Shown in pieces: positions 7,366-32,822 of a stretch of 45,003 bases of DNA (position 1 is its first letter; each line of letters begins with the position of its first letter). The position numbers were made by a program, and so were the translations under genes. The notes beneath the pieces were generated by a model. That model saw only the letters and a program-made list of their open reading frames with translations. It was not told the origin of the DNA and searched no databases. This DNA comes from a virus, in IMG/VR virus record IMGVR_UViG_3300027759_000146, positions 1 through 45,003 of that record; one strand, written 5' to 3'.

Positions 7366-7905
7366 TTAAGAAGTGGCAAACGGGGTTGCAACAGTGCCAG
7401 AACCCAACACAGTGCCAGTGACCATGTACTTCAGTGCGGCAACAGCAACAATCTGGACAAAAGTTCCAGCAACACCACCAGTGGTAGTGCCGTTCAAGTT
7501 GATGAAGTCATCACTCGCGCCAGCGGTAAACCCTACAGCGGCACCAGAGGTATCGGTGTCAATAGACAGCACAGCGCCAACATATCTGTCAGTACCGTCA
7601 GTAGCAATTTTTAACGAGCTAGTGGAGATGGTGGTGGGAACCCAGATCGTGTAGACAACGCCTTCGTTGTTCAACGTATTGGGGTCTTGACCAGGACCGG
7701 AAGTAATGGGATTGGTAGAAGTGTTAATGGTTGGCAGGGTCAGCGTAAGTGCTGCGGCCAATGATCCACCAATGCTAATAATGCGACCACCGTGAGCTTC
7801 GGGACTCAAAGTGGTACTAGCTGTGATTTCAACAACAGCGGCTGGGCCTTGTTGATAAATGCCACCCAATGAACGAACTGGGCCTTGAAACGTACTACGT
7901 GCCAT
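7366..7905 (-). CDS. Putative capsid decoration protein
   Basis: A 179-residue Ala/Thr/Ser/Gly-rich protein of alternating beta strands. It starts MARSTFQGPVRSLGGIYQQG and contains 'LTLTLPTINTSTN' in the middle. It lies directly downstream of the major capsid gene and is flanked by terminators on both sides, with a folded leader before its start. That arrangement is usual for very abundant phage capsid proteins and decoration proteins. The family is inferred from context and composition, not from a recognised motif. Confidence 0.6.
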   Translation of the reverse strand: MARSTFQGPVRSLGGIYQQGPAAVVEITASTTLSPEAHGGRIISIGGSLAAALTLTLPTINTSTNPITSGPGQDPNTLNNEGVVYTIWVPTTISTSSLKIATDGTDRYVGAVLSIDTDTSGAAVGFTAGASDDFINLNGTTTGGVAGTFVQIVAVAALKYMVTGTVLGSGTVATPFATS

Positions 7906-7927
7906 GATTTTTACTCCATGCGTTAAA

Positions 7928-7972
7928 GCGTATCAATCTTGCATGACAGTCAGCCGGGACTGTTTGATACGC
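7928..7972. repeat. Nested inverted repeat in leader of 7366-7905
   Basis: GCGTATCAA (7928-7936) pairs with TTGATACGC (7964-7972), and inside it ACAGT (7946-7950) pairs with ACTGT (7959-7963). It lies between the capsid terminator and the start codon at 7905. It may be an mRNA-stabilising or processing hairpin. No T-tract follows, so it is not a terminator. Confidence 0.6.
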
Positions 7973-8008
7973 CGGGAATCCCGGTTTAGAAGCAATATAC
8001 ACCAAAAG

Positions 8009-8034
8009 AAAAGGGGGCACAAGGCCCCCCTTTT
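8009..8034 (-). terminator. Rho-independent terminator after major capsid gene
   Basis: AAAAGGGGG (8009-8017) and CCCCCTTTT (8026-8034) form a 9-bp stem with an 8-nt loop. On the minus strand the stem ends in TTTT followed by CTTTT. It begins 1 nt after the stop of the capsid gene. The A/T tracts on both sides would let it act in either direction, but only the minus strand carries genes here. Confidence 0.85.
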
Positions 8035-8035
8035 A

Positions 8036-8944
8036 TTAGGCTCCTTGAGAGCCGTACATGCCCAGAGGGTCAGACCAGCCGAAGCTGTAACGCTCACGAG
8101 ACTTGTAACGCACGTTGCCGGTGTCGAAGTCGCCGTCCATGCTGTTAGACAGCGGAGTACGGACAAAGTGCTTCATACCGTTGGGTACGTCAGTGGTCAG
8201 GAACCAAGCGTTGGTGTCGGTCAAGAAGTGGTTAATGCAATATCCATCAGGAATAGAGCCATTGTTCTTGATCGCGTTCACATCGTTGTCAGTGGTGCCG
8301 ACGCGGAGTTCGGTTTCCAACAGACGGGTTGCAACGAATTGCAACTGAGGAGGAACGACCAATTTCTTGGGCTTAGCTGCGATCAACAAGCCACGCTCAT
8401 CCGTCCACAAACTAATTTGAATAACTGCGTTTTCCAACGAAGTCTCATTCAAGTCAGCAGCGGTCGTAGGAATGTTGCTGTTGGTGCCGCCAGAAACCAG
8501 CGGGTGGCTGGCGCTAAACAATGCAACACCATCACCGCCGGTATAGGACGATGAGAAGCCATTGTTCAACACGGCAGCAGCTTTAACCTGCTTGGTGTAG
8601 GCCATAGCACGAGCCAAAGCTTTGGTGTAACGAGCAGACAGGCTGTCGTACAGGTTGTCCTCGATGGCCTCTTCGGTCAGCGAGAAACCCAAAGCAATGG
8701 TTTCGTGGGTGTAGCGGGCAGTCCAAGCTTCTTGACCATTGTCATATGCAATGGCGGAGCCTTCGTTCTTCACCGGGGCGGCGTTGAATCCAGACAGCTT
8801 GGTTTCCTCTTCGAAAGAACGCTCAGAAGTCTCAGTCTCATAGATTTCTTTGTGTTCTTGCCCGTACTGTGCATACTCCAAACCGAACAAAGCGTTCAAG
8901 CCTGGGAGCAGCTCTTTCAATAGTTGTGCGCGTGAAATTGCCAT
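8036..8944 (-). CDS. Major capsid protein, HK97 fold
   Basis: A 302-residue protein without membrane segments. It begins MAISRAQLLKELLPGLNALF. The middle has 'FSLTEEAIEDNLYDSLSARY' and the segment 'FSASHPLVSGGTN', and later 'LVVPPQLQFVATRLLETELR'. The order N-arm, spine helix, 'SASHP', 'VVPP' resembles Mu gpT-type and related HK97-fold capsid proteins. It lies downstream of scaffold, with its own terminator directly after the stop and a strong ribosome site (AAGGAGTAA). Assignment by pattern and synteny is confident; the subfamily is less so. Confidence 0.85.
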   Translation of the reverse strand: MAISRAQLLKELLPGLNALFGLEYAQYGQEHKEIYETETSERSFEEETKLSGFNAAPVKNEGSAIAYDNGQEAWTARYTHETIALGFSLTEEAIEDNLYDSLSARYTKALARAMAYTKQVKAAAVLNNGFSSSYTGGDGVALFSASHPLVSGGTNSNIPTTAADLNETSLENAVIQISLWTDERGLLIAAKPKKLVVPPQLQFVATRLLETELRVGTTDNDVNAIKNNGSIPDGYCINHFLTDTNAWFLTTDVPNGMKHFVRTPLSNSMDGDFDTGNVRYKSRERYSFGWSDPLGMYGSQGA

Positions 8945-29888: not shown

Positions 29889-29916
29889 TATGTGCAATTA
29901 TGTGCAAAGAATTATA
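29889..29916 (-). promoter_or_regulatory. TATAAT box followed by two direct repeats TATGTGCAA
   Basis: On the minus strand a TATAAT (29916-29911) overlaps the stop of 29912-30163; no good -35 is seen. Just downstream, two direct repeats of TATGTGCAA on the plus strand (29889-29897 and 29899-29907) are spaced by exactly 10 bp, so they lie on the same helix face. This looks like a regulated internal promoter. Confidence 0.4.
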
Positions 29917-30163
29917 CATCTATTTCTTGGGATTCGTGCGCCTGTTTTGCCAAATCTTCTATTTCATCGATTAGGCCAAACCCTAATAGAGGGAAGATGT
30001 CGGCATCATTTAGCTTGGCAACTGTCAACGTTGCCACCGAGGGATAGTCAGGTTCCATCTTCAGGCCGTTCTCAGTAAAGCCAGTCTCTGCCGGCTCATA
30101 CTCCAACGTACATTCAAGGACGATGCCGCAATCATGGGTGTAGGTGTAAAAGAACATTTCCAT
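29912..30163 (-). CDS. Acidic hypothetical protein, first gene of the minus operon
   Basis: An 83-residue acidic protein, MEMFFYTYTHDCGIVLECTL..., with 'EYEPAETGFTENGLKMEPDY' and 'IDEIEDLAKQAHES'. It has an AAAGGAG ribosome site and lies 27 nt downstream of a clear -10 box, so it is made first and probably in quantity. Acidic DNA-mimic-like or host-takeover roles are possible but not shown. A one-mismatch copy of the palindrome lies in its codons. Confidence 0.6.
   Translation of the reverse strand: MEMFFYTYTHDCGIVLECTLEYEPAETGFTENGLKMEPDYPSVATLTVAKLNDADIFPLLGFGLIDEIEDLAKQAHESQEIDV
30023..30036. repeat. Dispersed palindrome, copy 4 with one mismatch
   Basis: TGTCAACGTTGCCA within 29912-30163; one base differs from the consensus. 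Confidence 0.55.
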
Positions 30164-30189: not shown

Positions 30190-30218
30190 AATGTAACTAT
30201 CAGGTATGGCTATGTCAA
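30190..30218 (-). promoter_or_regulatory. Sigma70 promoter of the replication/early operon
   Basis: On the minus strand TTGACA (30218-30213), 17-nt spacer, TACATT (30195-30190). It is 27 nt upstream of the 30163 start. Operator copy 4 lies 9 bp upstream of the -35, a place where either activation or interference is possible. Confidence 0.8.
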
Positions 30219-30241: not shown

Positions 30242-30276
30242 AGATACTTCCTTGGTGGACGCAAGGCTCGGCTGGC

Positions 30277-30784
30277 AAAACTCTGCCTAGGGGAGAGGAT
30301 CACTCTCCACCCAGGCGTTATTCCACTTCCCCGGAGCCACAGCTTAGTCTTCCGTGTGGATTAGCGTCATGCCAAGTGCGCTAACTCTGGATGCTTTCCA
30401 CCGCTTGGCGGCGTCTAGCTCGGTCATCCAGTTCTACCCTCCACCCGCAGGACTTGCACCCACAGTTAAAGATAGAAAACTCCACCGATTGCGCTTGCTC
30501 TTCTTTGCGCTCTCGTCACAGGTAAGAACGTCGTAGTGATGGTGGACTGCGCTCTACGCCTTACGGCTTCCAACGCCTCCCTCATGCCAACACAAAACCC
30601 GATAGAAACCTGTAACAAGGTACGGGCCAGAAAGCACAAAACCCATAGTGGAACGAGCTTTGGGCTTGGTTGCCGCATACAGGGCTGTCTATAGCAGACA
30701 CCTGTAGCTTTGACGAAGCCCGCTCCACTATGGGTTCGGGATTGCGTTCTATAGAAACTACACCGGGTTACCAAGCCGGTGATG
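30277..30784 (-). ncRNA. Structured noncoding RNA of about 500 nt with its own promoter
   Basis: There is no convincing gene here, but the minus strand folds throughout. Hairpin CACCGG/CCGGTG at the 5' end (30781-30761). A 21-bp stem (30736-30716 with 30660-30640) that is complete on the minus strand through two G-U pairs, while the plus strand would have A-C mismatches. It encloses the hairpin ACAGG-TGTCT/AGACA-GC-CCTGT. GGCTTGGT in the first loop region can pair with ACCAAGCC (30670-30663). Further stems: TCCACC/GGTGGA (30546-30541, 30486-30481), CTGGATG/CATCCAG (30431-30425, 30393-30387) enclosing CGCCGC/GCGGTG, TTAGCG/CGCTAA (30384-30379, 30366-30361) and GGAGAG/CTCTCC (30308-30292). The 3' end near 30277 (TTTT) is approximate. 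It resembles large ornate phage RNAs (GOLLD, ROOL) only in style. Confidence 0.75.
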
Positions 30785-30790
30785 GGGCGA

Positions 30791-30820
30791 ATTATATCAA
30801 CACATTTTAAAGCGCGTCAA
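30791..30820 (-). promoter_or_regulatory. Strong sigma70 promoter of the structured RNA
   Basis: On the minus strand TTGACG (30820-30815), 18-nt spacer, TATAAT (30796-30791). The predicted start, about 30784, is at the first hairpin of the RNA. It lies only 25 nt after the stop of the glycosyltransferase-like gene, and no ribosome site or start codon follows closely. Confidence 0.85.
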
Positions 30821-31507: not shown

Positions 31508-31790
31508 GGCAGTCCAATCCCCGTGCGTGTAGGTTGTTGGTGGCTGGTACTGTGATCTCCAGCTTTCATTAAACTATCGGGCCTACTGCGGTCAGCCCAA
31601 TCCGAAATAGCGGGGTTAGTCCTCGATCTCCAAACCCATAGGCTTAGCGTTTTCCCCTGAAAGATGCCGCAACACCTTGCACATCAGTCTGTGCATTCAC
31701 CAACACGGCTGGGGACTGCCTTGCAAGGATAGTTCTAGTTACGGCGAACCACAATCCCCATGCGTGTTAATCCCCGTCTTTCCGGGGTGC

Positions 31791-31958: not shown

Positions 31959-32822
31959 TCAATCTCCACAGAAGCACGCTATCCCCTCCTCATTCACATC
32001 AAACATATCCGTCTGATCCCGCGAGAAGTCCATCATCTTCTGGTAGCTGGGCCGGTCGCTCCTGAATACGGCGCCAGACGGCTTGCTGGCCAAACTGGTC
32101 AATTCCATCTTTGCCCACCACACACCCCTGCTAGGGTCTTCCCTAATCAAGCTCTGAATCTGCGCCGCCGGCTTGAGAAAGCACAGCACACAGTTGCCAG
32201 CTAAAGTCCGGCCATTGAATGTATCTAGCTCCAGATTAAACGGCTGCTTGCTCCAGAATTCATTGACATCCTGCACCGAGTACCCGGCATCAGCCAATGG
32301 CATACGCATGGTTTCCTTGGTAGTCTCAGTGCTATGCCCGCGGGCGCGTATCTTGGTCACACGGCGGTTTTCATCAGACCGAATCCCGATCATCTGATCC
32401 CACTCCATGTCCGCGGCATCCCAACCCAGCGCCTCCCAGTTATTCCTGAGCCACTTGTGCATCGTCCTGATCTTCAGTTCAGAAGTGCAGAACCTAGTTA
32501 CCGGGTTGGGCAGGTAGTTGCGCTTCTTGATGATGGCCTCAAACGGCTCACCATTGCGACTAGCAGTGGCAAAGTTGACAGCTTCATACCCCACTTCATT
32601 GGTGCGATATTCCAGCCAGTTGATGTTTACACCCCACTCCTGACCGCACCGCTCCACAAATCTCAAAGTATTTTCATGCTCTAAGCCCGTGTTGGCAAAG
32701 CAAATAACGGCGTCCTTGGGCAACCCGCCATGAGTTTCCAAGACCTTCCAAAGCATAAAAGCTGATGTCCGACCGCCTGAGAATGAGATGGCGGTAGGGC
32801 CGTCGATACGAAATGCGTCCAT
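31959..32822 (-). CDS. PP-loop ATPase, PAPS reductase-like
   Basis: A 287-residue protein. N-terminal PP-loop 'ISFSGGRTSAFML' (residues 12-24) binds ATP and adenylates the substrate. It also has 'FANTGLEHENTLRFV', 'TRFCTSELKIRTM', 'GNCVLCFLKPAAQ' and a terminal 'GIACFCGD', Cys motifs usual in phage PAPS-reductase-like and DndC-like proteins. The phage role may be sulfur-linked nucleic-acid modification or nucleotide metabolism. No dnd or ssp partner genes are in the window. Ribosome site AAGGA. Confidence 0.8.
   Translation of the reverse strand: MDAFRIDGPTAISFSGGRTSAFMLWKVLETHGGLPKDAVICFANTGLEHENTLRFVERCGQEWGVNINWLEYRTNEVGYEAVNFATASRNGEPFEAIIKKRNYLPNPVTRFCTSELKIRTMHKWLRNNWEALGWDAADMEWDQMIGIRSDENRRVTKIRARGHSTETTKETMRMPLADAGYSVQDVNEFWSKQPFNLELDTFNGRTLAGNCVLCFLKPAAQIQSLIREDPSRGVWWAKMELTSLASKPSGAVFRSDRPSYQKMMDFSRDQTDMFDVNEEGIACFCGD

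Follow-up and report, generated by a model that had tools for sequence, protein, structure and literature searches.

A structured RNA gene with its own promoter

The DNA analysed here (the window) is an IMG/VR viral contig of 45,003 bases. On its minus strand, between an ORF at 31507-30845 encoding 220 aa and an ORF at 30163-29912, lies a region that a first-pass annotation had described as holding no convincing gene, and homologues of the region indeed share no conserved reading frame. It holds a structured noncoding RNA of about 540 nt, running from about 30784 to about 30245 (Table 1). This large RNA gene of a freshwater phage, served by a promoter of its own, is real and previously uncatalogued. 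The conserved RNA extends further than the limit of 30277 first given for it. The near-consensus sigma70 promoter proposed for it was found as described, scoring 11/12 with a TG before the -10 element. Promoter position is a feature of the whole family: within the 330 nt 5' of the core, a site scoring at least 10/12 was present in 61% of members versus 2% of random windows, and one scoring at least 11/12 in 42% versus 0.3%, with a spacing from -10 to core of mostly 130-250 nt.

No clear terminator was seen for the window RNA. In a group of relatives represented by phage G021, a terminator-like hairpin follows the core and a second promoter-like site comes after it, giving the next gene a separate promoter. 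The gap between the core and the next ATG is about 80 nt in both the window and the G021 group. A PAPS-reductase-like gene (PHROG 424) lies at 31959-32822 on the minus strand of the window, and in the G021 group such a gene is also found directly upstream of the RNA. A second structured element with inverted ends (CAGTCCCCAGCCGTGTTGGTG ... CACCAACAACCTACACGCACGGGGATTGGACTG) occupies 31508-31720 on the minus strand, directly 5' of the ATG of the 220-aa gene, and has no Rfam match. Many other members, among them L187, L188, L201, L213, L215, L240 and L246, have one of its motifs, CAGCCGTGTTGG, upstream of the RNA.

Table 1. Features of the RNA locus in window coordinates.
Feature	Position	Strand	Basis or remark
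Sigma70-type promoter TTGACG-18-TATAAT, extended -10 TG	30791..30820	-	start site expected near 30784
5' module, type A, ~150 nt	30636..30784	-	18 homologous modules; 41 pairs, 15 with two-sided changes
First hairpin CACCGG/CCGGTG	30761..30781	-	loop GGCUUGGU (30777-30770) complementary to ACCAAGCC (30670-30663)
21-bp stem, 30736-30716 with 30660-30640	30640..30736	-	U-rich stretch GGGUUUUGUGCUUU comes after it
3' core, ~370 nt, 15 helices tested	30245..30621	-	alignment of homologues
Core helix H1, 30615-30608 with 30523-30516	30516..30615	-	two-sided changes in 7/8 pairs
Core helix H2, 30593-30587 with 30542-30536	30536..30593	-	two-sided changes in 6/7 pairs; 95.7% of cells paired
Pseudoknot helix, 30488-30485 with 30423-30420	30420..30488	-	98.7% of cells paired; AU/UA/CG exchanges
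Core helix H7, 30431-30425 with 30393-30387	30387..30431	-	two-sided changes in 7/7 pairs; 99.2% paired
Hairpin H8 inside H7	30413-30409 with 30403-30399	-	two-sided changes in 5/5 pairs
Core hairpin H9, 30385-30379 with 30366-30360	30360..30385	-	two-sided changes in 6/7 pairs; 98.4% paired
Second promoter-like site TTGACA-17-TACATT	30190..30218	-	sequence; precedes the next gene
83-aa ORF downstream of the RNA	29912..30163	-	resembles, by eye, the gene that comes first behind the RNA in the G021 group; no family assigned

Homologues of the RNA in viral contigs

The related phage G021, reached via the portal gene, carries a syntenic intergenic region with 71% identity to the window over 30606-30245. 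Viral contigs were searched by motif scans and then by profile searches, which yielded 61 loci with 56 distinct homologous cores, drawn from IMG/VR and one named phage record. That record, MW202426.1 (phage ctsTn925; locus L228), holds the RNA at positions 7724-8095, where two hypothetical proteins are annotated, and it was the sole member found among the named phages searched. A pattern scan covering genomes from 84,980 species of bacteria and archaea detected neither the core nor the type A 5' module (module A), and neither was found in 399 Burkholderiales genomes. We found no description of the RNA family in the literature searched, a search thin on subscription papers.

Compensatory changes support the fold of the 3' core

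The RNA of the window consists of a 5' module (~150 nt) and a 3' core (~370 nt). Folding of the window sequence against shuffles gave z = -3.3 for the minus strand and z = -2.7 for the plus strand; such single-sequence folding is by itself moderate evidence, and it is the comparison of homologous sequences that makes the case for structure strong. Over 72 pairs and 38 cores, 89.0% of cells were paired versus 73.8% in shuffled alignments. Compensatory change was decisive: 468 two-sided changes were counted, versus 156 after shuffling and 76-115 when partners were slid. Covariation was also assessed over all column pairs with our own imitation of R-scape (not R-scape itself), in which alignments were simulated on the tree; 11 pairs reached E < 0.05, all 11 of them canonical, and 19 of the 21 column pairs with E below 1 were canonical. 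The pseudoknot helix crosses H7, and its top pair obtained E = 0.0 in this test.

Long unpaired stretches of the core such as UCUAUCGGGUU (30606-30596) and CUACnACGUUCU (30536-30525), both strictly conserved and enclosed by H1, show almost no variation, their loop residues being invariant in 38 sequences, and the inner hairpin of H2 is closed by GNRA- or UUCG-type loops. The longest reading frames across homologues scatter as they do in shuffled sequence, so that the noncoding reading survives and a protein-coding one does not.

Several candidate features were rejected. A small ORF starting from GGCATGAGG, coding-like within the G021 group, is interrupted in other members, with lengths of 4 to 90 codons, and where the T-loop-like GGGUUCAAGUCC would stand, relatives have other loops. 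In L201, L205 and L223, the hairpin GCC-GNAA-GGC at core positions ~50-75 is absent and GAGGAAAGUCCGC arises there; it recalls conserved region I of RNase P, and no RNase P model matched.

Alternative pairings in the 5' modules

The 21-bp stem of the 5' module, with its two minus-strand G-U pairs, had been the key structural claim of the first-pass annotation. The stem is present and shows compensatory changes among 18 homologous 5' domains, one of the G-U pairs staying G-U in 18/18 type A modules. A kissing interaction had also been proposed between the loop of the first hairpin and a downstream segment. Here the complementarity holds: its centre UGGU/ACCA is conserved, and L241 has UGGC/GCCA, one compensated change. 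These data are compatible with a kissing contact but do not prove it.

Other 5' modules were sorted by eye into types B, C and D. Modules of types B and C have a 7-nt 5' strand that pairs with a loop inside the hairpin, and among 25 distinct words its own partner was a far better match than those of other members, a result reached in 0 of 5000 permutations. The same strand also pairs with a strand just before the core (1 of 5000 permutations). The two pairing sites overlap by at least 4 nt in 12 of the 25, which would permit a switch in these two types. Nearly every 5' module is closed by a hairpin and a U-run, an end that could stop transcription before the core.

Members of the G021 group carry an additional domain, placed after the 5' module and ahead of the core: GAGACTGAGACTG...CAGTCTCAGTCTC in L102 (2900-3010) and GAGACTGGGATTG...CAGTCCCAGTCTC in L103. 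This domain contains GGGTTAGCGCC and ACTGCTTnATGTGAGC, motifs that are found upstream of the promoter in other members.

The two modules are exchanged independently

The locus had been proposed to encode a large structured RNA on the minus strand. Covariation and the promoter uphold this large structured RNA, with selection acting on the minus strand; it consists of two separable modules that are exchanged independently. At least four 5' modules, unrelated to one another, occur in front of the core, and the 5' type switches at least 20 times along the core tree. In L267 and L243, for example, the cores are 98.9% alike, the promoter regions 96% and the flanking DNA ~78%, and the 5' modules are unrelated.

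Exchange was equally evident from the side of the 5' module. Scanning viral contigs with a 17-base piece of module A gave 109 stretches, and a module A profile matched 82 of 88 new loci, just one of which had the window core behind it. About 80 further copies of module A exist in other viral contigs, nearly all of them preceding other RNAs. The 3' parts behind module A fall into 24 groups at a strict cut, and at least eight clearly unrelated kinds were counted by eye. One of them is a known RNA, Betaproteobacteria-1, which stands behind the promoter and module A in three loci (L364, L375 and L440; 101-107 bits) and, in L375, occupies the locus that holds a window-type core in L205. In L407 an ORF lies directly 3' of module A with no 3' core, and module A may therefore also act alone.

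In L379, L369, L365 and L396, another 3' core (CCGTACTCCGCACGATAGCAAG...) with a hypervariable insert was noted ~100-250 nt after module A. The insert contains tRNA-like pieces (GATGATGGTGTAGCTCA...GGTTCGA...CCATCATC), and ARAGORN calls no tRNA in it. Core 2 looked GOLLD-like by eye, and the covariance model gave no match.

Near-identical pairs show replacement at one locus, independently of any tree. Between -2999 and -12, a stretch that takes in the promoter and module A, L199 and L411 share 94.3% identity; their cores are unrelated, and downstream of them identity is back at 95%. The whole RNA differs between L202 and L379 within flanks that are ~95% identical, and in L266 and L369 module A and the downstream gene are ~95% alike while the core is not shared.

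Genes adjacent to the core

An ORF often starts at a distance of 0-20 nt behind the core. Of the 67 loci listed, 15 have an HNH ORF that begins 0-9 nt after it, and Pfam confirmed HNH in five loci (PF01844). These HNH genes have at least two architectures, and their presence changes at least nine times on the core tree. Other genes directly behind the core encode DUF5710 or are unnamed small genes; no HNH gene follows the RNA in the window. L203, L223 and L246 have tRNA genes just upstream, and upstream tRNA genes were also seen at 5 of 81 module A loci; there are none in the window.

Searches against known RNA families

No Rfam family reached its threshold in the window. Chance matches to group-II-D1D4-4 (E 0.53, 15 bits versus a cut-off of 49) and MIR6459 were weak and were set aside, and neither group I nor group II intron models exceeded threshold. 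The idea that the RNA belongs to, or adds to, the GOLLD/ROOL kind was supported: it adds to that kind of large phage RNA and, by the GOLLD and ROOL models, belongs to neither family. The GOLLD model (RF02032) found nothing over its cut-off in the records of 29 relatives (best E 3.2, 4.2 bits) and no match in 24 module A records; as a positive control, it detected true GOLLD at 217 bits in Mycobacteriaceae. Conversely, a profile of the window RNA family gave nothing significant in true GOLLD loci. The ROOL model (RF03087), run without a positive control of its own, had no match at E up to 10 in the same 29 records, and cmscan of the window for ROOL was also negative. The window RNA did not match the Betaproteobacteria-1 model (RF02932), and HEARO and intron models had no match at Rfam gathering thresholds in 17 member loci.

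Discussion

The reading that we consider best, with a probability of roughly 0.6, is a phage RNA that acts in trans and is encoded at a hypervariable cassette locus. Host sigma70 RNA polymerase would make a stand-alone noncoding RNA of ~540 nt, whose 5' module and 3' core would fold separately. The window RNA would be one of the alleles found at this RNA cassette locus, where recombination in the promoter, 5' module or downstream gene that alleles share may replace half of the RNA or all of it. Action in trans inside the infected cell is favoured by the unrelated genes downstream of the core and by the separate terminator and promoter of the G021 group. That folds are retained while whole modules are rapidly exchanged is a pattern that would fit diversifying or frequency-dependent selection at the locus, and on these grounds we prefer a trans-acting RNA with a platform half and a specificity half. 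If one half were a common platform and the other met a target that varies, in hosts or in rival phages, this would explain why folds are kept and exchange is nevertheless favoured; the specificity half is suggested by the pattern of exchange. Module exchange suggests a rapidly evolving RNA that could serve as a weapon, a shield or a regulator. HNH homing endonucleases may settle beside the core and help to spread it.

Among the alternatives, the one that fares best, though we consider it unlikely, is an RNA-only assembly like GOLLD or ROOL, with the exchangeable 5' parts as cargo or lids. The RNA is phage-borne and ornate, with a conserved 3' part and a variable 5' part. GOLLD, with that layout, is likewise phage-borne, often near tRNA genes, and forms a 14-mer cage (PMC12286853); tRNA genes lie nearby in L203, L223, L246 and some relatives with module A, and none lie in the window. 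The negative model searches, and the want of sequence kinship with real GOLLD, count against such an assembly.

Slightly less probable is a cis-acting leader or attenuator, in which the core would be a long 5' UTR controlling the adjoining gene, preceded by a 5' module that works as a terminator and can be switched. The hairpin and U-run ending nearly all 5' modules and the overlapping alternative pairings of types B and C are what a leader would show, and a leader role is possible since an ORF starts within ~20 nt of the core in many members. Yet the genes behind the core are unrelated (HNH, DUF5710 and unnamed families), ~80 nt separate core and ATG in the window and the G021 group, of which the latter has a terminator-like hairpin and a promoter of its own, and a pseudoknotted core of 370 nt exceeds what a leader needs.

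We regard as improbable a mobile element in which core and HNH gene form a homing unit and the RNA (ribozyme or guide-like) is needed for mobility: HNH ORFs do abut the core in many members, their presence switches repeatedly on the tree and the core alone is common to L191 and L192 at the DNA level, but HNH is absent from most members, the adjacent proteins match HNH Pfam models only, the 17 member loci lack intron or HEARO matches, and the core always lies behind a promoter and 5' module, as an intron would not.

A broader version of the cassette reading, to which we give even odds, is a combinatorial noncoding-RNA system in which a dedicated phage cassette locus would pair a promoter and a few 5' modules with a wide range of structured 3' RNAs that are unrelated to one another. 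The window RNA, Betaproteobacteria-1 and several unnamed RNAs would then be interchangeable alleles, perhaps in conflicts with hosts or rival phages. The present RNA ties an orphan Rfam family, Betaproteobacteria-1, to a wider system. GOLLD and ROOL are large phage RNAs with defined structures whose function is not known; for the present family, near-identical phages with different cores at one locus are natural allele swaps, which makes function genetically testable. Our results also suggest that the variable 5' part of GOLLD may likewise reflect module exchange.

GOLLD comes closest to the window RNA in layout, sharing the phage setting, a conserved 3' part and a less conserved 5' part; what sets the window family apart is that it trades places with other 3' RNAs at a single locus. 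ROOL, a large RNA of phages and prophages that lies near tRNA islands and whose function is unknown (PMC12286853), is likewise large and phage-borne; it differs in that its model does not match and that the two-module layout belongs to the window RNA. A structured RNA directly before an HNH-domain ORF recalls HEARO and the omega RNAs of IscB and of the IsrB nickase system (PMC12286853), whereas the window family has no Rfam match, neighbours that match HNH models only and no guide-like 5' end. Betaproteobacteria-1 shares the promoter and module A in L364, L375 and L440 and is a different 3' RNA; in the Burkholderiales loci examined it stands without module A. Stable RNAs C and D of phage T4 lie in a tRNA cluster with the homing endonuclease SegB. 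By description they resemble the present family, being stable RNAs of a phage that have no known function and lie close to tRNA genes and a homing nuclease, and they are much smaller than the window RNA.
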